A stretch of DNA of 64,000 bases, taken from positions 62,001 to 126,000 of the forward strand of contig JBCCHD010000007.1 of NCBI GenBank assembly GCA_039028935.1, given 5' to 3'. Numbering within the stretch: position 1 is the first letter of the stretch; every line of letters begins with the position of its first letter. The notes beneath the pieces are model-generated. The model worked only from the letters and a program-made list of their open reading frames with translations. It was not told the DNA's origin and made no database searches. Below are positions 1,004 to 10,375 of this stretch, piece by piece. The translations under genes were made by a program, and so were the position numbers. The stretch is from Pseudomonadota bacterium. GTDB lineage: Bacteria; Pseudomonadota; Gammaproteobacteria; Steroidobacterales; SZUA-146.

Positions 1004-2590
1004 TCATTGGCCAAACCGGAGGCTGTGGGCATCCTGAATGTGATCGAGCGAGCGCAGACCGGCCAGTTGCTCAGGTCCCAGCGGGGCATCGACCTCAAGC
1101 AGCGCGATGGCCTCGCCGCCACTATGGCGTCGACCAAGATGCATGTTGGCAATGTTAATGTCGTTCTGGGCGGCAAACGTACCGATGGCACCGATTACCC
1201 CAGGCTGGTCCGAGTTGGTTAGATACACCATATGTGGGCCAAATTCGGATTCGAGTTTGACGCCTTTGATATCCACTATGCGGCCCACTTTCTTAAACAG
1301 CGTGCCGCTGACGGTGCGCGAGCGACTTTCGGTCGTGACTTCAAGCGTAATGCGATTATGGTATTCGTTTTCAACTTCACTGCTGGCGGTCGTCACGACA
1401 ATGCCCATATCACGGGCGACTTGCTGGGCGTTCACCGCGTTGACATTGCAATTGCTGGGTTCCAGCACGGCCTGTACCGCCTGCGTTACGATCGGCTCCA
1501 TATTAAGGGTGGTCACGTCGCCATAGAGCGACAACGTGATGCCCTTTATCGCCTCGCGCGACAGCTGTCCGGCAAACGCGCCAAGGTTTTTTGCGAGTGT
1601 TAAGTAGGGAGTGAGTACGATCGCTTCTTCGGCGGTGAGATTCGGCGCATTGAGGGCGTTAGCGATCGCGCCATCAAGTAGATAATCCGACAGTTGTTCG
1701 GCGATCTGTACTGCCACTTTCTCCTGCGCTTCTTGTGTTGAGGCGCCAAGGTGTGGCGTGCAAATCACATTGGGTAATCCGAACAAGGGATTTTCTTTCG
1801 CGGGCTCATCGGTGTACACATCAAGCGCGGCCCCATGCAGATGATCGTTGAGCGCCGCCATTAGCGCCAGTTCGTCGACCAACCCCCCTCGTGCGCAGTT
1901 GATGAGCATGGCACCCGCTTTCATTTTGTTGATCGCGGTGGCGTCGATAATGTTCTCGGTGTCGGGCGTGCGCGGCACATGCAGTGACACGATGTCGGAG
2001 CTTTTGAGTAAGTCGTCGAACTCCACTTTTCGAATGCCAAGACTGTCGGCACGCACTTCGGTTAGGAATGGATCGTAGGCTTGGACGCGAAGGCCAACCC
2101 CCATCGCTTTTTTGGCGACGATCGAGCCGATATTGCCTGAGCCGATAATACCAAGGAGTTTGCCCGACAGTTCCGTGCCCATAAATCGAGACTTTTCCCA
2201 TTTGCCAGCATGCGTTGAGGCATTGGCCTGCGGAATGTGTCTGGCTAACGCGAACATCATGGCCAACGTGTGTTCGGCCGTGGTGACGGCGTTACCAAAC
2301 GGTGTGTTCATCACAACGATACCGCGCTCGGTACAGGCGCCTTTGTCAATGTTGTCGGTGCCAATGCCGGCGCGCCCGACCGCTCTGAGCCGGGACGCAT
2401 GCGCGAGCAGTTCGGCGGTGACTTTGGTCGATGAGCGCACGGCAAGTCCGTCAAACTCCCCGATCAAATCGGTGAGCTCTTCGGGCGACAGTTTGGGCGA
2501 CGAAACGGCTTCGATACCCCGGCTTTTGAAGACGGCCGCAGCCTGACTGGACATGGTGTCGGAAATTAAAACGCGAAGGGGAGTAGTCAT
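1004..2590 (-). CDS. serA: D-3-phosphoglycerate dehydrogenase SerA (long form)
   Basis: Oxidises 3-phosphoglycerate to 3-phosphohydroxypyruvate with NAD, the first committed step of serine synthesis. At 528 residues it is the long form, longer than the about 410-residue Escherichia coli enzyme. The N-terminal half has the substrate/NAD domains: GRAGIGTDNID, the Rossmann fingerprint GIIGSGNIGS, and the catalytic region ending in TPHLGASTQEAQ. An intervening domain follows (about 320-450), then a C-terminal ACT domain starting near VYLTNSDQPGVIGAIGTFAA, expected to bind serine for feedback control. It starts 13 bases after the serC stop and precedes serB. Confidence 0.96.
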   Translation of the reverse strand: MTTPLRVLISDTMSSQAAAVFKSRGIEAVSSPKLSPEELTDLIGEFDGLAVRSSTKVTAELLAHASRLRAVGRAGIGTDNIDKGACTERGIVVMNTPFGNAVTTAEHTLAMMFALARHIPQANASTHAGKWEKSRFMGTELSGKLLGIIGSGNIGSIVAKKAMGVGLRVQAYDPFLTEVRADSLGIRKVEFDDLLKSSDIVSLHVPRTPDTENIIDATAINKMKAGAMLINCARGGLVDELALMAALNDHLHGAALDVYTDEPAKENPLFGLPNVICTPHLGASTQEAQEKVAVQIAEQLSDYLLDGAIANALNAPNLTAEEAIVLTPYLTLAKNLGAFAGQLSREAIKGITLSLYGDVTTLNMEPIVTQAVQAVLEPSNCNVNAVNAQQVARDMGIVVTTASSEVENEYHNRITLEVTTESRSRTVSGTLFKKVGRIVDIKGVKLESEFGPHMVYLTNSDQPGVIGAIGTFAAQNDINIANMHLGRRHSGGEAIALLEVDAPLGPEQLAGLRSLDHIQDAHSLRFGQ

Positions 2591-2602
2591 TGACAGGTTT
2601 CC

Positions 2603-3784
2603 TTAAGAGTGTTCGTGCAACCAGCGAGTAAATGCCCAGTCGAGCCAGGGCAGCATGGCGGTAATATCGTCGGCTTCGACCGTCGCACCGCCCCAGATAC
2701 GCAGGCCCGGGGGTGCGGCTCGGTAAGCATTGATGTCGAAGGCCACACCTTCGTCGGCCAGCCAGCCGCAGAGCGTTTTAACGGCGCTGCGCTGTTCCTC
2801 TTCACCAAGACGGGTAAACGTCGGGTGGGTAATCTTGAGGCACATTGATGTACACGATCGTGTTGCCGGTTCGTCGGCCAGCCAGTCTATCCACTGGCTG
2901 TCTCGCACCCACTGATCAACGGCCGCAAAATTGCGTTTCGAGCGATCGAACAGTGCCTTTAGCCCGCCTACATCCTGCGCCCAATCGAGCGCTGAATGGA
3001 GATCCTCAATGGCCAGCATGCTGGGTGTGTTGATGGTGGCGCCTTCGAACACCCCTTCATTCAGTTTGCCCTTTTTTGTGAGCCTGAAGATTTTGGGTAA
3101 TGGCCGGGGTGGTGTGAACGTCGTCAGTCGCTCCACGGCTTTGGGCGATAACGCCAGCATGCCGAATCCTGCCTCGCCGCCGAGCACTTTTTGGAACGAC
3201 CACGTAACGACGTCGAGTTTTGCGTAGTCGAGCGGCATGGCGAACGCGGCAGACGTCGCGTCGCACAGAGCGAGCCCCTCTCGATCGGCGGTCAACCAAT
3301 CCAAATCGGGCACACGTGTGCCGCTGGTGGTGCCGTTGTACACAAACACCACATCGCGGTCTGGCTGTACCGCCGATAAGTCAGGCAATGCGCCATAGGG
3401 CGCGCGCAGATAACGAACATCGTCCAGCGCGAGCTGTTGCTCAATGTCGACCGCCCAGTCCGATGAAAAGCTCTCCCATACCAACACGTCGACGCCGCGG
3501 GCACCGAGTAGTGACCACATGGCCATTTCGAATGCTCCGGTGTCGGAGGCAGGTACCAGTGCCAGTCGCCAGTCGGCGGGTAGCTCGAGCAGAGTGGCCT
3601 GACGATTGATAACCGATTGAATGCGTGCTTTGTGTTTCGGTGCGCGGTGGCTGAAACCAAGATGTTGGTCGGAGAAGTGGGCGGGCGACCAACCCGGATG
3701 CTTTTTGCAGGGGCCCGACGAAAAGCGTGGGTTCACCGGGCGCACAGACGGACGACCGGCAACACCCCGATTAGGCGTGTTCAC
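2603..3784 (-). CDS. serC: Phosphoserine aminotransferase, Methanosarcina/alphaproteobacterial type
   Basis: A PLP-dependent transaminase making O-phosphoserine from 3-phosphohydroxypyruvate and glutamate. The N-terminus (PVNPRFSSGPCKKHPGWSP) and WSFQKVLGGEAGFGML, whose Lys should bind PLP, match the SerC subfamily described from Methanosarcina and Alphaproteobacteria rather than the usual E. coli-type SerC. At 393 residues it fits that subfamily. It is the first gene of serC-serA-serB, and its stop lies 12 bases before the serA start. The context makes the role firm. The subfamily is atypical for a gammaproteobacterium and may reflect gene replacement by transfer. Confidence 0.92.
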   Translation of the reverse strand: MNTPNRGVAGRPSVRPVNPRFSSGPCKKHPGWSPAHFSDQHLGFSHRAPKHKARIQSVINRQATLLELPADWRLALVPASDTGAFEMAMWSLLGARGVDVLVWESFSSDWAVDIEQQLALDDVRYLRAPYGALPDLSAVQPDRDVVFVYNGTTSGTRVPDLDWLTADREGLALCDATSAAFAMPLDYAKLDVVTWSFQKVLGGEAGFGMLALSPKAVERLTTFTPPRPLPKIFRLTKKGKLNEGVFEGATINTPSMLAIEDLHSALDWAQDVGGLKALFDRSKRNFAAVDQWVRDSQWIDWLADEPATRSCTSMCLKITHPTFTRLGEEEQRSAVKTLCGWLADEGVAFDINAYRAAPPGLRIWGGATVEADDITAMLPWLDWAFTRWLHEHS

Positions 3785-3991: not shown

Positions 3992-5335
3992 ATGAATCAG
4001 GAAATACGTTTTCGCAAACGCCAGCGGCACGGCAAGTACCGCATTGAGAGCTGCTTATTGCGCGGGCCTTACGCGAATGTGTACAGCGCGTGCGATACGG
4101 TCGAAGGCGTTAAGGTAGCGCTTAAGCTGCCGCATAAAGATCTGTCGAACAAGGATTACCTGAGCGATTTTTTGCGCGAAACACGGATTGCCGCCAAGCT
4201 TGAGCACGAGAATGTGCTGCCGCTCAAAGACGCCAGCTTCATAAACGATATTTTTACCATGGTGACCCCGCTTGGCGCGGAGACGCTCGAGGCGCGACTC
4301 AAGCGGCGGCTGTCCAATGAAAAAGCGTTCGACTATGCAAAGCAGCTGATTTGCGGGGTAGCGTACGCCCATGAGCAGGGCATCATGCACTGTGATATCA
4401 AGCCCGCTAATTTGATTTTATTTGGTGACGGTCGCCTTCGTCTGGCGGATTTTGGTATTGCCAAAACCACGTATAAAACCATTCAAGCATCTGGATCCGG
4501 CACGCTGGGGTATCTGGCGCCCGAACAAGCGATGGGTCGCCCTTCGTTTCGCTCAGACGTGTTCGCGGTGGGATTGATTCTGCACCAAATGCTCAGCGGT
4601 GCACTGTACGAGTGGCCGTTTCGATGGCCATCGTCGGGTTACAAGCGACTCAAGCAGCGTGCGCACCCAAAACTCGTCGACTTTCTGCGCAAGGCGCTTG
4701 AATTTCAGCCCAACAAGCGGTTTCGAGACGGTCCCGCGATGCGTAACGCCTGGATACTGTTGGAGCGACGCGGCCACCTGCATGGCAAAACACGCTCCGC
4801 GGCCACCAAGATGGCACCGGGGCGTCAACACACCGGTAGTAAAAGTGGTCGGCATTGGCGCGAAATTCAGTTCAAACAATTCCAGCGGCGTTTTGGTAAA
4901 GCGCTGGACACCCACATGCAGTGCACGGAGTGCCAGGGGCCGATTGCCGAGAGCATGACGTACTGCCCGTGGTGCAAAACGAAAACGCAAGGCCAACCCG
5001 ACAACACGCGTTATGCCTCGGTGTGTCCACACTGCCAGCACGGTGTTAAGAACGACTGGGAATACTGTCCATGGTGCTACGGTTCGGGCTTTGAAACGTC
5101 GACCAAGCGGCGCGCGGATAAACGCTATACCGCGACGTGTCATCGCAAATCGTGTGGCGGGCCGATTATGCCTTTCATGAAGTACTGCCCTTGGTGCCAT
5201 GCGCGAACCAAGCAACAGTGGACGCTGCCGGGTATGGTTCAATGCGAAAAATGCAATTGGGGTATCGCCGGCGAATATTGGGACTACTGTCCGTGGTGTT
5301 CAACAGCCAATACGGCCAATAAGGAACGTCGATGA
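3992..5335 (+). CDS. Ser/Thr protein kinase with four C-terminal zinc ribbons
   Basis: A Hanks-type kinase. The ATP-binding Lys is K45 (VALK), the catalytic loop is HCDIKPAN (D135, N140), the DFG is at 153-155, and GTLGYLAPEQ forms the P+1/APE region. The glycine loop (LLRGPYANVY) is degenerate. A basic linker (about 265-305) leads to four zinc ribbons (about 311-440), each ending in CPWC: CTEC/CPWC, CPHC/CPWC, a C-x4-C version (CHRKSC)/CPWC, and CEKC/CPWC. There is no membrane segment, so the kinase should be cytosolic. Its stop overlaps the start of the next gene (ATGA), a PP2C phosphatase, indicating a coupled kinase/phosphatase pair. The substrate is unknown. Confidence 0.92.
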   Translation: MNQEIRFRKRQRHGKYRIESCLLRGPYANVYSACDTVEGVKVALKLPHKDLSNKDYLSDFLRETRIAAKLEHENVLPLKDASFINDIFTMVTPLGAETLEARLKRRLSNEKAFDYAKQLICGVAYAHEQGIMHCDIKPANLILFGDGRLRLADFGIAKTTYKTIQASGSGTLGYLAPEQAMGRPSFRSDVFAVGLILHQMLSGALYEWPFRWPSSGYKRLKQRAHPKLVDFLRKALEFQPNKRFRDGPAMRNAWILLERRGHLHGKTRSAATKMAPGRQHTGSKSGRHWREIQFKQFQRRFGKALDTHMQCTECQGPIAESMTYCPWCKTKTQGQPDNTRYASVCPHCQHGVKNDWEYCPWCYGSGFETSTKRRADKRYTATCHRKSCGGPIMPFMKYCPWCHARTKQQWTLPGMVQCEKCNWGIAGEYWDYCPWCSTANTANKERR

Positions 5336-6153
5336 GCGGTCTGCTGACTATTCCAAAGAGTCAGAAACTGGTTCGCGGTGATTTGGCCACGATTGAGCAT
5401 CAACGTATCAACGTCGGGGAAGTGGCGTATTTTGCCCACTCGAGCCCGGACAAATCGACCGGCAATGAAGACAGCCTCGGCGTGATGGAGCTCGATGATC
5501 GACGCGCCGCGCTGGTGGTGGCGGATGGCTTAGGCGGTCATCGCGCGGGTGCGGAGGCCTCGGCGACCGCGATTAACTCGTTGTTCAGCAGTTTGGCCCA
5601 ACACGACGACGCACGTTCACTGCGCGCGACGATGATGAATGGTTTAGAGGCGGGCAATCGCAATGTGATGGAGGTGGGTGGTGGTGCCGCGACGACCATA
5701 ATCGGCGCGTTGCTCGAGGACCATACGCTGCGCATCTATCACATTGGTGATTCGGGCGGCCTGCTGGTTGGACAGCGCGGCGCCATCAAGCTGCGCACAG
5801 TGGCGCATTCACCGGTGGGTCATGCGGAGGCAAGCGGGCTCATCGATGAGGAGATGGCGCTTGCGCATGAGAGTCGGCACATTGTGTCGAATGTGCTTGG
5901 CAGCAACGAAATGAGTATCGAGGTCGGCCCTATCGTAAAGCTTGCTCGCTTTGACACGCTGCTGCTTGCCAGCGATGGCTTGCTCGACAATTTGCGTACC
6001 AGCGAAATCGCGGCCCTCATACGCAAGGGCAAATTGCCCGTCATCGCCGAGGCGTTGCGGGCTAAGATTCAGGAACGTATGACCACGCTGTCGCCGCAAC
6101 ATCCCAGCAAACCGGATGACCTGAGTTTCGTATTGTTCCGGCGCACGGCCTGA
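5332..6153 (+). CDS. PP2C-family Ser/Thr protein phosphatase
   Basis: Metal-dependent (PPM/PP2C) phosphatase, expected to reverse phosphorylation by the upstream kinase. Motifs seen: GNEDSLGVM (E46, D47), VVADGLGGHRAGAEAS with the metal-binding DG at 65-66, IYHIGDSGGLLV, and LLASDGLLDNL near the end. The first about 30 residues are a non-catalytic lead. At 273 residues it is a single-domain enzyme without a membrane segment. The ATG shares bases with the kinase stop codon, so the two proteins are probably made in a fixed ratio. Confidence 0.93.
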   Translation: MSGLLTIPKSQKLVRGDLATIEHQRINVGEVAYFAHSSPDKSTGNEDSLGVMELDDRRAALVVADGLGGHRAGAEASATAINSLFSSLAQHDDARSLRATMMNGLEAGNRNVMEVGGGAATTIIGALLEDHTLRIYHIGDSGGLLVGQRGAIKLRTVAHSPVGHAEASGLIDEEMALAHESRHIVSNVLGSNEMSIEVGPIVKLARFDTLLLASDGLLDNLRTSEIAALIRKGKLPVIAEALRAKIQERMTTLSPQHPSKPDDLSFVLFRRTA

Positions 6154-6301
6154 TTCATCGCGACCCGCTCGCGCGTTACCCGCCTCCAATTTATGACAAA
6201 TGCCTCGCTGCGCCAGGGGCCGATCGCGAGCCGGTGCGGTGTATCGGTAAATTGGGGGTGTGTCGTGACCGGTATTGAATCCGTGCTCGCAACCGGCGAA
6301 G

Positions 6302-7774
6302 ATGTCAGTTTGCAGCGCAAACAACGACAAAAACACCGTGACTCGATGGCTTAACACGCGCTTTATCTTTCTTCTTCTGCTCGCAACGGCTGGCTGCGAG
6401 CGCGGGGCGCGTGTGGCCGATCTTGAGCCGGTACCGGTGGTCGAGACATCGCGCTACTTGCCGGTGATACAAGCCCAGTTTGCCGACGCGATGCAGGCCG
6501 TTGACGAGTCACCCGGCAATCCGGACGTCAATGCACAGCTTGGTCGCCTGCTGTACACATACGATCAGTTTGAGTCTGCAGCAGTACTATTTGAACGTGC
6601 GGCGGCGCTTCAGCCGCGCGAGTTTATTTGGCCCTATTTGTCGGGCCGAGCCCGCGCCGAACTTGGGCAGACCGAACGGGCTGAACAATCGCTGACGCGG
6701 GCGCTGGCGCTTGAATCGCGCTACGCGCCGATCAATGTGCACTTAGCGGAGCTGTATCTCAAAGCTAATCAGGATGCGGCCGCTCGTGACGCCGCTGAGC
6801 GCATTCTCGAGCACGCACCTGAGCGCCCGGAAGCGCATTTTATTTTGGCGAAACTAGCTGTCCGCGATGGCAAGTTCACGCAAGCACTGGCGCGTCTACA
6901 GCGTGTCGAACAACTCTCGGGCCGCTTCGCCGCACTACACTATCAGTATTCGCAAACGTATCGCATGCTCAATCAACCGGATCAGGCGGATGTGCACCTT
7001 CGGCTTTATGAGCAACTGCGAGAGGTCACCGCCGATATTAAGGACCCGGTGATGGGCGAGGTGCACGCACTCAATCAAAGCGTGGACTATCTGGTGTCGC
7101 AAGCGAAATGGCATGTGGCGAACGGTCGCAACGAACCCGGCTTAGCCTTGCTGGAACGAGCGGTCGAGAACAATCCGCAAAGCCTAGCGGCGCATGTCAC
7201 ATTGGTCGGCGTATACTCGTCGAATCGTCGCTTTGCGGACGCCGACCGTCATATCGCGGCCGCCAGCGCCATCGATGAGAATCACCCTAAACTTCAATAT
7301 GCCATTGGCGTTGCGCGAATGATCGAGGAACGTCGCACCGAAGCCACCCGAGCATTTGAGCGTGCCTTACGCGCCGATCCGCAAAACGTTGACGCCCATG
7401 TGCAAATTGGCGTGCTTCTGGAACAGCAGCGGCAGCCGGAGCGCGCCGCGCGTCGTTATGAGCGAGCGCTGGATCTCAAACCCGCACATCGCGTTGCGCA
7501 TTGGCGGCTAGGTCGGCTTAAATTGAATCAGAACGATGCGACGGGTGCGTTGGCGCATCTGACGCAAATTCGCTCGTTGGTAGACCCCGCTTCGCCCGAA
7601 ATCTTGCTGGATCTGGCCCGCGCGTTGGCGCTCGACGAAGACTATGCCCAAAGCATTGTTGTACTGGAGGAGGCCAAAGCTGTTGCTCAGCGTTTCCGCA
7701 ACCAGAATGCGGCTCAACAGGCGTCGATGCTACTCAACCAATATCGCAATAGGCGCTCGGACAGCACACCATGA
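6302..7774 (+). CDS. TPR-repeat lipoprotein
   Basis: The N-terminus has a hydrophobic stretch FIFLLLLATAG followed by Cys, a lipobox, so the protein is probably anchored in the outer or inner membrane facing the periplasm. The rest (about residues 60-480) is tetratricopeptide repeats, with recurrent A-x-L/Y-A helix patterns such as AVLFERAAALQPRE and AARRYERALDLKPAH. The ATG at 6302 is chosen; a TTG at 6275 would add nine residues and a GTG at 6338 would give a shorter signal. The gene ends 13 bases before the FG-GAP/ASPIC gene, a common pairing of TPR and FG-GAP proteins. Likely a scaffold; no enzyme motif is seen. Confidence 0.85.
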   Translation: MSVCSANNDKNTVTRWLNTRFIFLLLLATAGCERGARVADLEPVPVVETSRYLPVIQAQFADAMQAVDESPGNPDVNAQLGRLLYTYDQFESAAVLFERAAALQPREFIWPYLSGRARAELGQTERAEQSLTRALALESRYAPINVHLAELYLKANQDAAARDAAERILEHAPERPEAHFILAKLAVRDGKFTQALARLQRVEQLSGRFAALHYQYSQTYRMLNQPDQADVHLRLYEQLREVTADIKDPVMGEVHALNQSVDYLVSQAKWHVANGRNEPGLALLERAVENNPQSLAAHVTLVGVYSSNRRFADADRHIAAASAIDENHPKLQYAIGVARMIEERRTEATRAFERALRADPQNVDAHVQIGVLLEQQRQPERAARRYERALDLKPAHRVAHWRLGRLKLNQNDATGALAHLTQIRSLVDPASPEILLDLARALALDEDYAQSIVVLEEAKAVAQRFRNQNAAQQASMLLNQYRNRRSDSTP

Positions 7775-7787
7775 TCAGTCGACCACG

Positions 7788-9551
7788 ATGAACATTCGTC
7801 TCTTCCACTGCCGGGTACTGACGTCCATCGTCGTCGCTATGCTCATCACGGCCTGCGGGGAGCAGAACACACCCACCACTCAATCGGCCGTCGAGGACAC
7901 GGCTGCCGCCGCTCCGATCGGCCCCATGTTCGACGATATCGCCGCTCAGACCGGTCTTGAGTTCGAGCACTTTGTTGGCGCAACGGGTGAGTTTCTGATG
8001 AGCGAAGTCATGGGCTCGGGCGTGGCGCTGATGGATTACGATAATGACGGCGATCTCGATGTGTATTTGATACAGGGCGCCATGGCGGACCCGCGGCGTA
8101 GTCTTTCCGAGTCGATTTTTGACCCGCCCGACGGCGCGCTGACCAATCGCCTGTTTCGCAACGAACGCATTCCCAGCGGCACGCTCTCATTCACCGATGT
8201 GAGCGAGATCTCGGGTCTGGACCATGATGGCTATGGAATGGGTGTTGCGGTTGGGGATATCGATAACGACGGGGACGCGGATGTCTACCTCACCAATTTC
8301 GGACCCAACGTTTTGTATCGCAACAATGGTGACGGCACCTTTGAGGACATCACCGATAACAGCGGCATCCGCGCGCCGGGTTGGACCACCAGTGCCGCGT
8401 TTGCGGACTTTGATCGCGACGGGGATCTGGATTTGTTTTCGGTGGATTACGTAGCGTTTGACGTGTTGCGTAATACTGAGTGTTCCAGCGTGGGAGGGCG
8501 ACGCGATTATTGTGGTCCACAGGTGTACCCGCCCATGGCCGATCAACTGTATGAAAATCTCGGTGACGGTCGGTTCCGTGATATCAGCGCGACCGTCGGC
8601 GTAGCGGGTGCAACCGGTCCGGGTCTGGGTGTGGTGTGGGCCGATTTCAATGGCGATGACTGGCCCGACGTGTTTGTTGCTAATGATGGTGCGGCGAATT
8701 TTTTGTGGTTAAACGAAAACGGCAAACGCTTTGAAGAGGCTGGATTGCGTTCGGGCACAGCCTATAACGCCATGGGTGGTGCTGAGGCGAGTATGGGGGT
8801 AACGGCGGGCGATTATGATAGCGATGGCGATATGGATTTGTTCATGACCCATCTTGTTCAAGAAACCAACACGCTGTATGTCAACAATGGCAATGCGCAG
8901 TTCTTTGATGGCACCGACCGCGCCGGACTAGGTGCAAGTAGTTTACCGAGCACGGGCTTTGGCGCGCGGTTTTTCGACCTGAATAACGACGGCTGGTTGG
9001 ATTTGTTTATTGCCAACGGTAACGTCAAGCTTGAGGAAAAACGGGTGGCCGTATCGGACTATCCACTCGAGCAACCCAATCAACTGTTCATCGGCAAAGA
9101 AGGGCGTTTCCAAGACGTGTCGCTCAGCGCGGGGGAGAGCGTGAATGAGCTTCGGGTCAGCCGAGGCGCCGCGTTTGGTGACATTGATGACGACGGCGCC
9201 ATAGACGTTGTCGTGACCAATAATAATGGTCCGGTGCGACTCATGCGCAATGTCTTTGCACCGCAAGGCCGCGCCTTGACCGTACATCTACAGGGCACAG
9301 AATCGAGCCGCGATGCGACCGGCGCACGCGTGGCGCTATTGCGCGACGATCAACCGCCGATCTGGCGACGCGTGAGCACCGACGGCAGTTACCTTAGCGC
9401 CAATGCACCATCAGTGCATTTCGGTCTTGGCGATCGCGCAGAGGCACGTGTCACGTTGGGAGTGATTTGGCCGCTCGGCAAAAAAGAAACGTTTTCGGTC
9501 CCCACAGACCGGACGTCGACGCTGGAAGAGGGCACCGGTCAGTCTTGGTAA
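7788..9551 (+). CDS. FG-GAP/VCBS-repeat protein with C-terminal ASPIC/UnbV domain (CRTAC1-like)
   Basis: A surface or periplasmic beta-propeller protein of 587 residues. The ATG at 7788 gives a signal peptide ending LITAC, a likely lipobox. Repeats with calcium-binding Dx(D/N)xDGxxD loops recur: DYDNDGDLDVYL, DIDNDGDADVYL, DFDRDGDLDLFS, DFNGDDWPDVFV, DYDSDGDMDLFM, DLNNDGWLDLFI and DIDDDGAIDVVV. The last about 80 residues resemble the ASPIC/UnbV domain (GARVALLRDD, VSTDGSYLSANAPSVHFGLG). It follows the TPR lipoprotein by 13 bases, so co-transcription is likely. The ligand is unknown; adhesion or extracellular binding is inferred from the family. Confidence 0.9.
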   Translation: MNIRLFHCRVLTSIVVAMLITACGEQNTPTTQSAVEDTAAAAPIGPMFDDIAAQTGLEFEHFVGATGEFLMSEVMGSGVALMDYDNDGDLDVYLIQGAMADPRRSLSESIFDPPDGALTNRLFRNERIPSGTLSFTDVSEISGLDHDGYGMGVAVGDIDNDGDADVYLTNFGPNVLYRNNGDGTFEDITDNSGIRAPGWTTSAAFADFDRDGDLDLFSVDYVAFDVLRNTECSSVGGRRDYCGPQVYPPMADQLYENLGDGRFRDISATVGVAGATGPGLGVVWADFNGDDWPDVFVANDGAANFLWLNENGKRFEEAGLRSGTAYNAMGGAEASMGVTAGDYDSDGDMDLFMTHLVQETNTLYVNNGNAQFFDGTDRAGLGASSLPSTGFGARFFDLNNDGWLDLFIANGNVKLEEKRVAVSDYPLEQPNQLFIGKEGRFQDVSLSAGESVNELRVSRGAAFGDIDDDGAIDVVVTNNNGPVRLMRNVFAPQGRALTVHLQGTESSRDATGARVALLRDDQPPIWRRVSTDGSYLSANAPSVHFGLGDRAEARVTLGVIWPLGKKETFSVPTDRTSTLEEGTGQSW

Positions 9552-9826: not shown

Positions 9827-10375
9827 TTAGCGGCGTCGTCGGAGTCCTGCGAGACCGACCAGACCACTGAGCATCAGCCATACGGCCGCAGGCAGTGGCA
9901 CGGCGGTAACGTTACCAGGACCGGTGATGTCGATTTCCCATGCGCCGTTGGGCTGACCAAAGCTGTTAGGCACATCGGTGAACGAGGTGATCACGAGAAA
10001 GTAGCTCGTGCCAGCTGTGAGGTTCACATCGAGGATCTGTGAGGTGTTTGAGCCACTCGGACCATCGTCGTCGAACGACAGGGCGCCCGCACCGTCACCG
10101 GCGGGATCAAACGCGGCTTCGAAAATGTAGATGTAGCCGTCGAGGTTCTCGTCGAGGGCCGTGTCACCTGGGTAGAGCGCGTCGATCGTGTACAGACCAC
10201 TGGCGTCGACCGAGAATTCAACCACGTCGTAGTTACAAGAAGGCGGTGTGGCTGATCCACAGCCTCCCCACGTTGGATCGCTAGGATCCAGGCTTCCGCT
10301 GAACAAAGCAGCGCTGGCGGCTGAGCTCATAGCGAACGTACCCAGCAGCGTCGCGAGTGCGAACAGTTTCTTCAT
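9827..10375 (-). CDS. Secreted protein with VPLPA-CTERM sorting tail
   Basis: An exported protein of 182 residues. It has a clear signal peptide (MKKLFALATLLGTFAMSSAASA), a short beta-rich domain with Asp/Gly-rich turns, and a C-terminal tail made of VPLPAAVWL, a hydrophobic segment and RRRR. That tripartite tail is the VPLPA variant of PEP-CTERM, recognised by an exosortase. No exosortase gene is in this window. The N-terminal domain was not matched to a known family; CGSATPPSC may form a disulfide. The ribosome site AGGGGAGA is strong. A bidirectional terminator follows the gene. Confidence 0.88.
   Translation of the reverse strand: MKKLFALATLLGTFAMSSAASAALFSGSLDPSDPTWGGCGSATPPSCNYDVVEFSVDASGLYTIDALYPGDTALDENLDGYIYIFEAAFDPAGDGAGALSFDDDGPSGSNTSQILDVNLTAGTSYFLVITSFTDVPNSFGQPNGAWEIDITGPGNVTAVPLPAAVWLMLSGLVGLAGLRRRR

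Follow-up and report, generated by a model that had tools for sequence, protein, structure and literature searches.

A non-RD Hanks-type kinase with a four-zinc-ribbon array and its paired PP2C-type phosphatase gene in Woeseiaceae-type Gammaproteobacteria and Planctomycetota

What would an array of four zinc ribbons do at the C-terminal end of a bacterial serine/threonine kinase? The question is raised by a stretch of 64,000 nucleotides, here called the window, from a gammaproteobacterium of the order Steroidobacterales (assembly GCA_039028935.1, contig JBCCHD010000007.1, positions 62,001 to 126,000 of the forward strand). Positions 3992..5335 of the window encode, on the forward strand, a Hanks-type Ser/Thr kinase of 447 amino acids with such an array (ATG start, TGA end; identified by Pfam and by its relatives), and positions 5332..6153 encode, on the same strand, a PP2C-type protein phosphatase of 273 amino acids. 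A sequence-only reading of this DNA had proposed a soluble protein with a complete kinase domain and a degenerate glycine loop, four ribbon motifs ending in CPWC that act as a zinc-dependent docking array, and an ATGA coupling to the phosphatase gene. We find that the kinase and the phosphatase form a conserved unit, and we give about even chances to the view that the array is a docking arm of a cytosolic kinase.

Relatives were gathered in two sets. A scan of named genomes for the ribbon array, made with the patterns M-Y-CPWC (ribbon 3) and DW-YC-WC (ribbon 2), gave 308 pattern matches, 247 of which encode a relative; the locus analysis covers the best 80 of these 247, and the selection favors the two motifs used and not the other ribbon cysteines. 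The resulting 80-row alignment holds the window protein and 79 loci, one locus with a cut 5′ end (L087) having been omitted. The second set comprises 25 stretches from order relatives, partly on the same contigs as the 80 loci, and its 24-row alignment holds the window protein and relatives of this kind. Gene starts in the relatives were chosen by script, and 61 members were scanned with Pfam, a match being counted at an E value of up to 0.1.

Kinase domain and zinc-ribbon array

The kinase domain (residues 15–255, limits set by eye; 4034..4756, forward strand) matches the Pfam Pkinase model (PF00069) over residues 23–243 with 121.3 bits against a cut-off of 31.7 (the model also matches all 61 members scanned), and its predicted fold is nearest to that of PknB (1o6y; Z 27.5, root-mean-square deviation 2.4, 237 aligned residues). 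Lys45, Glu63 of helix αC, Asp135, Lys137, Asn140, Asp153, Glu178 of the APE motif, and Arg243 are invariant in all 80 rows, consistent with the complete domain proposed earlier. The glycine loop (LLRGPYANV, residues 22–30; 4055..4081) is degenerate, as had been remarked, yet it is so throughout the family: at the GxGxxG position the first glycine is lost in 75 of the 80 rows, the second is kept in 77, and the third is replaced by alanine in 79. Because the first glycine is lost so widely, we regard the degeneracy as a family trait and not as decay.

Absent from the sequence-only reading is the state of the catalytic loop, where the HRD position reads HCD (His133-Cys134-Asp135; 4388..4396) in 80/80 rows and likewise in 24/24 rows of the order-relative set. 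The arginine before the catalytic aspartate that defines the RD subclass is a cysteine in every one of the 80 rows, which makes this a non-RD kinase and suggests that it is probably independent of the usual contact between this arginine and a phosphothreonine of the activation loop. Of the 15 other kinase matches in the same 4.1-Mb genome, nine were fetched, and these read HRD (eight) or HSD (one). HCD-type non-RD kinases are discussed mainly for plant immunity; the pair described here offers a bacterial one.

What follows the catalytic domain sets the protein apart within its own genome, where the gene at 3992-5335 is the only one of the 16 kinase matches that spans the whole query, the other 15 ending at or before residue 251. 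A basic linker (4757..4921; assigned from charge and from structure models), with a predicted helix at residues 285–305, leads into four zinc ribbons, each closed by YCPWC in the window protein: ribbon 1 (C-x2-C-x10-CPWC, Cys311/314–325/328; 4922..4975), ribbon 2 (C-x2-C-x10-CPWC, Cys345/348–359/362; 5024..5077), ribbon 3 (C-x4-C-x10-CPWC, Cys383/388–399/402; 5138..5197), and ribbon 4 (C-x2-C-x11-CPWC, Cys418/421–433/436; 5243..5299). The cysteine partners of each putative metal site were assigned solely by their spacing and by secondary structure. Across the 64-kb window, the codon pattern for CPWC turns up four times, always inside the kinase open reading frame; the expectation is 0.13, and 0 of 100 shuffles reach four. 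All 16 ribbon cysteines are invariant in 80/80 rows, and the C-x4-C spacing of the third ribbon is found in 40/40 rows of an alignment of the array alone. In the order-relative alignment, Cys388 is displaced in two of the 24 rows (L057 and L058, with C-x-C spacing), as it is in the fragment L061, and metal binding by ribbon 3 may differ in that genus.

The array matches the Pfam double zinc ribbon model DZR (PF12773) with 36.2 bits against a cut-off of 27.3, and the model matches in 61/61 members. A structure model of the array alone (40 rows; mean predicted local distance difference test score (pLDDT) 88.1, predicted template modeling score (pTM) 0.81) is a confident one and shows one helix and four repeated β-knuckle pairs, which the full-length model shows as well. 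The zinc-ribbon half of the proposed docking array is borne out by these matches and models, with zinc as the predicted ligand; its docking half is argued below. Relative to DZR proteins, whose ribbons it resembles, the window kinase differs in having two tandem DZR-like pairs, a C-x4-C third ribbon, and a kinase joined to them.

Other assignments of the array were considered and set aside. A DnaJ-like Cys-rich domain came to mind from the CxxCxGxG end of ribbon 2 and from 1exk, which heads the PDB profile matches, but the E value is only 0.03; the DnaJ Cys-rich model (PF00684) scores 12.5 bits against a cut-off of 32.7 and matches seven of the 61 members (best E value 0.0077), and the modeled knuckles repeat in order. 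Resemblance to ribosomal L33 or L32 (E value 0.07 or worse) was dropped, and matches to IFT-A, GATOR2, RanBP2, and FUS fingers by Foldseek and VIA (E values from 0.3 upward, Z no higher than 2.3) were not used.

By hydropathy, no 19-residue stretch exceeds a Kyte–Doolittle value of 1.6 in any of the 80 rows, in agreement with the soluble protein that had been suggested; the kinase is probably soluble and cytosolic. In the full-length AlphaFold2 model (61 rows), the mean pLDDT is 86.5 and the pTM 0.62; the linker (residues 268–283, pLDDT under 50) and the activation loop (residues 163–170) are modeled with low confidence. The low linker scores, together with the difference in pTM between the full model and the array alone, suggest two separately moving bodies.

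A kinase–phosphatase pair in two phyla

The second gene encodes a protein that matches PP2C_2 (PF13672; 40.1 bits, cut-off 24) and PF00481 (35.7 bits, cut-off 20.3). In a PP2C alignment of 74 rows, from which rows of 240 amino acids or fewer had been dropped, the metal-binding residues Asp47, Asp65, and Asp215 are kept in 74/74 rows and Asp262/Asp263 in 72/74, the other two rows being gapped. Its ATG lies within the kinase stop, in an ATGA overlap at 5332..5335 (forward strand), just as the sequence-only reading had it, and the two genes would be co-transcribed.

The search for the array and its neighbors in other genomes that had been suggested along with that reading shows that in 77 of the best 80 loci the PP2C gene lies 3′ of the kinase gene in the same orientation, with a spacing from a 35-base overlap to a 134-base gap (−4 in 17 of these loci, −8 in 16). 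Two of the three loci without a PP2C gene end early, 185 bases (L093) and 119 bases (L128) past the kinase. Among the stretches from order relatives, PP2C adjoins the kinase in 24 of 25, including L038 and L039, which are cut by the contig end. Kinase and PP2C divergence correlate with r = 0.93 (73 rows), much of which shared descent alone would give. The kinase and PP2C pair is a conserved unit.

The best 80 loci comprise 71 proteobacterial ones, many of them named Woeseiaceae, eight from Planctomycetota, and one from a metagenome-assembled genome (MAG) of Acidobacteriota. Woeseiaceae, whose signaling is poorly known, abound in marine sediments. The planctomycete carriers include Aeoliella straminimaris, Botrimarina colliarenosi, and B. 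hoheduenensis, and the pair may be testable in such named strains. The array is found in 26 of 97 relatives, the window's own genome included, and in 93 of 296 genomes of the order with one match each, that of G971 being a fragment. Farther out, 5 of 369 class genomes match at an E value of 0.001 or better, strongly only in the own genome and in G007, and 3 of 398 phylum genomes, strongly only in the own genome; the weaker matches (three in the class, two in the phylum) are fragments with E values of 7e-5 to 6e-4. One copy per genome is the rule, though the MAG MO_071.B18, which gives two loci on different contigs (L066 and L092), is an exception unless it is a mixed bin. A plasmid search returned 756 records, all under 60% identity; its matches at ranks 1, 2, and 4 were rejected as other kinases because HRD is present and CxxC is absent in and just behind the match.

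Between the two phyla, the mean identity of the pair is ~46–55%, and its persistence at that distance with unchanged catalytic residues and ribbon cysteines indicates strong selection on the kinase and phosphatase together. In an unrooted tree, the window protein groups with its two genus relatives (100/100), and a strong split (100/98) separates this clade, along with the rows from Planctomycetota and Acidobacteriota, from 68 other proteobacterial rows. The placement is uncertain as the end branches on the window-clade side are long and two long ones meet; transfer between the phyla, in either direction, is plausible on this evidence.

PknB/StkP-type Hanks kinases pair with a cognate PP2C (PstP/Stp). 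The window pair is like them in its kinase fold, in having StkP as its best PDB sequence match, and in the juxtaposition of kinase and PP2C genes, whereas it differs in lacking PASTA and membrane parts, in carrying four C-terminal zinc ribbons, and in reading HCD instead of HRD. No PASTA model is among the Pfam matches of the window kinase, its score against the PASTA kinase PknB/Stk1 equivalog NF033483 is 131.5 bits (cut-off 450), and its partner reaches 109.5 bits against the Stp1/IreP PP2C equivalog NF033484 (cut-off 230). Kinase and PP2C are also combined in Pseudomonas and Deinococcus, but there as fusions, listed as one protein (PMC1262709, Table 2), in contrast to the two genes here; neither "zinc" nor "ribbon" occurs in the main text of that paper. 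An open-access search, with subscription papers mostly outside it, found no paper on an architecture of kinase and zinc-ribbon array. Within the literature searched, the family is a variant of the Hanks kinase and PP2C combination that lacks a description, and it is marked by strict conservation, a non-RD motif, and a split distribution across phyla.

Docking arm or thiol switch

In the reading to which we give about even chances, the zinc ribbons are a docking arm that directs a cytosolic kinase, and the PP2C encoded beside it counteracts that kinase. The two genes would constitute a kinase–phosphatase switch, in which the catalytic domain, PknB-like but non-RD, is brought by a recruitment arm, made of the C-terminal basic helix and the four tandem ribbons, to one conserved and probably acidic partner, be it a nucleic acid, a ribonucleoprotein, or a protein complex, while the PP2C, presumably translated off the same message, strips the phosphates. 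That the two enzymes would oppose each other is suggested by PknB/PstP-type pairs. A binding surface is suggested by the array residues other than cysteine that are invariant in 61/61 rows (Pro317, Met322, Gly351, Lys353, Trp356, Arg373, Asp376, Tyr379, Met396, Trp410, and Trp430 among them), as these exceed what metal binding needs. The median net charge over the 80 rows is +12 for the linker and +11 for the ribbons; the window protein has +10 and +5, respectively. Such a basic linker and array fit nucleic-acid or acidic-protein binding, but the cysteines would suit a redox switch just as well.

Several observations weigh against a docking arm with a dedicated phosphatase. In the window protein, ribbons 1, 2, and 4 carry charges of 0, −2, and −2, which leaves the linker and ribbon 3 as the clearly basic parts. 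The pTM of the full model is too low to place the arm with respect to the kinase, and comparison of the array with the PDB gives no significant match (best Foldseek E value 0.3, best Z 2.3), so that no binding mode can be borrowed. The planctomycete kinase copy in L133 (288–1583) has no PP2C match within 8 kb downstream, and the order relative L051 is likewise without a PP2C. Finally, with Cys134, the number of cysteines invariant in 80/80 rows is 17, an observation that favors the main rival.

This rival, a smaller but serious possibility, is a redox or zinc switch, in which the Cys4 sites, perhaps together with Cys134, would sense oxidation or loss of zinc and turn the kinase on or off, with the PP2C resetting the system. 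Besides the cysteines themselves, 24 loci have, close to the pair, a gene (cluster 9) that by eye looks peroxiredoxin-like; it is, however, on the opposite strand in 24/24 and occurs in no planctomycete locus as far as these were fetched. Cys134 need not be a redox device, as plant non-RD kinases also have a cysteine in place of the HRD arginine. Redox modulation has been reported for SpkB of Synechocystis, a Hanks kinase with a Cys-rich N-terminal extension whose mutant differed in stress phenotype between two studies (PMC10651672). The likeness to SpkB, a Cys-rich appendage on a Hanks kinase, is drawn from its description, and the appendage of the window kinase is C-terminal, comprises four ribbons, and goes with a linked PP2C gene. 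The Cys-rich part of the window kinase is also rich in invariant residues other than cysteine, which again points to a binding surface. Sequence by itself does not decide between a docking arm and a thiol or zinc switch. A more specific version of the latter strikes us as rather doubtful: a module common to Woeseiaceae-type Gammaproteobacteria and Planctomycetota, in which the output of the non-RD kinase would be set by a four-site zinc-thiolate arm, Cys134 would belong to the same thiol/zinc sensor, and a dedicated PP2C would reset it.

It is unlikely that the ribbons serve as an intramolecular or dimerization element that maintains the fold of the kinase or causes its autoinhibition, independent of any external partner. 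Divergence of the kinase domain does go with that of the ribbons (r = 0.92), and a linker helix in which Trp289 and Phe297 are conserved could pack on the kinase, but the two separately moving bodies suggested by the linker pLDDT and by the pTM values (0.62 for the full model, 0.81 for the array) are at odds with such a role. A pseudokinase, acting as a scaffold with no phosphotransfer, is quite improbable: the lost first glycine and the change from HRD to HCD would be in keeping with it, whereas Lys45, Glu63, Asp135, Lys137, Asn140, and Asp153 never vary and the gene is kept together with that of a PP2C that retains its metal residues, so that the inactive kinase contemplated by the sequence-only reading as a refutation finds no support in the sequence. 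An anti-phage defense kinase of the PD-T4-6 or MAD6 kind is very unlikely: the PADLOC PD-T4-6 model does match (158 bits, E value 9.4e-47), but kinase-domain pieces of all seven other genome kinases tried of the 15 score higher on these models (best scores 195 to 305 bits), which suggests that the models are unspecific, and Woeseiaceae-type loci often preserve the gene order around the pair, unlike a defense island.

Neighboring genes

In many gammaproteobacterial (Woeseiaceae-type) loci, the pair is preceded by genes for an FGGY (glycerol-kinase-like) protein, a thioesterase, and an acyl-CoA synthetase, and followed by genes for a second kinase with TPR and a PEGA/FGE-sulfatase protein. Of the 71 loci whose upstream sequence is long enough, 37 have the FGGY gene within 150 bp of the kinase gene; of the 53 with at least 6 kb downstream, 41 encode the PEGA protein there, and five of the 12 others are planctomycete. 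None of these clusters was seen in the eight planctomycete loci or in the genus relatives L063 and L064 as far as fetched, the flanks being limited to less than 1.4 kb downstream in three planctomycete loci, 0.3 kb upstream in one, and less than 0.6 kb downstream in the genus loci. Among the eight planctomycete loci, the kinase and the PP2C are the sole gene clusters common to any two. In L135 (9484–16457), the region 3′ of the pair encodes two proteins without a Pfam match (374 and 412 amino acids), a TPR kinase with a transmembrane-like stretch (by eye), and a PEGA/FGE-sulfatase protein.

In the window, serC (GTG start) and serA (1004–3784) are divergent from the kinase gene, and of the 25 order-relative stretches, L038 and L039, from the two genus relatives, are the only ones in which they lie beside the kinase. 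On the other side of the pair, positions 6275–9551 encode a TPR lipoprotein (lipobox LATAGC, probable start at about 6337 by eye) and then an FG-GAP/ASPIC-UnbV protein; neither has a match over 60 bits in the 25 stretches, save for the ASPIC protein in L045, where a single match lies over 6 kb away from the kinase. Farther downstream, at 9827–10375, is the gene for a small protein whose C-terminus resembles a PEP-CTERM anchor (E value 0.016, below the cut-off).
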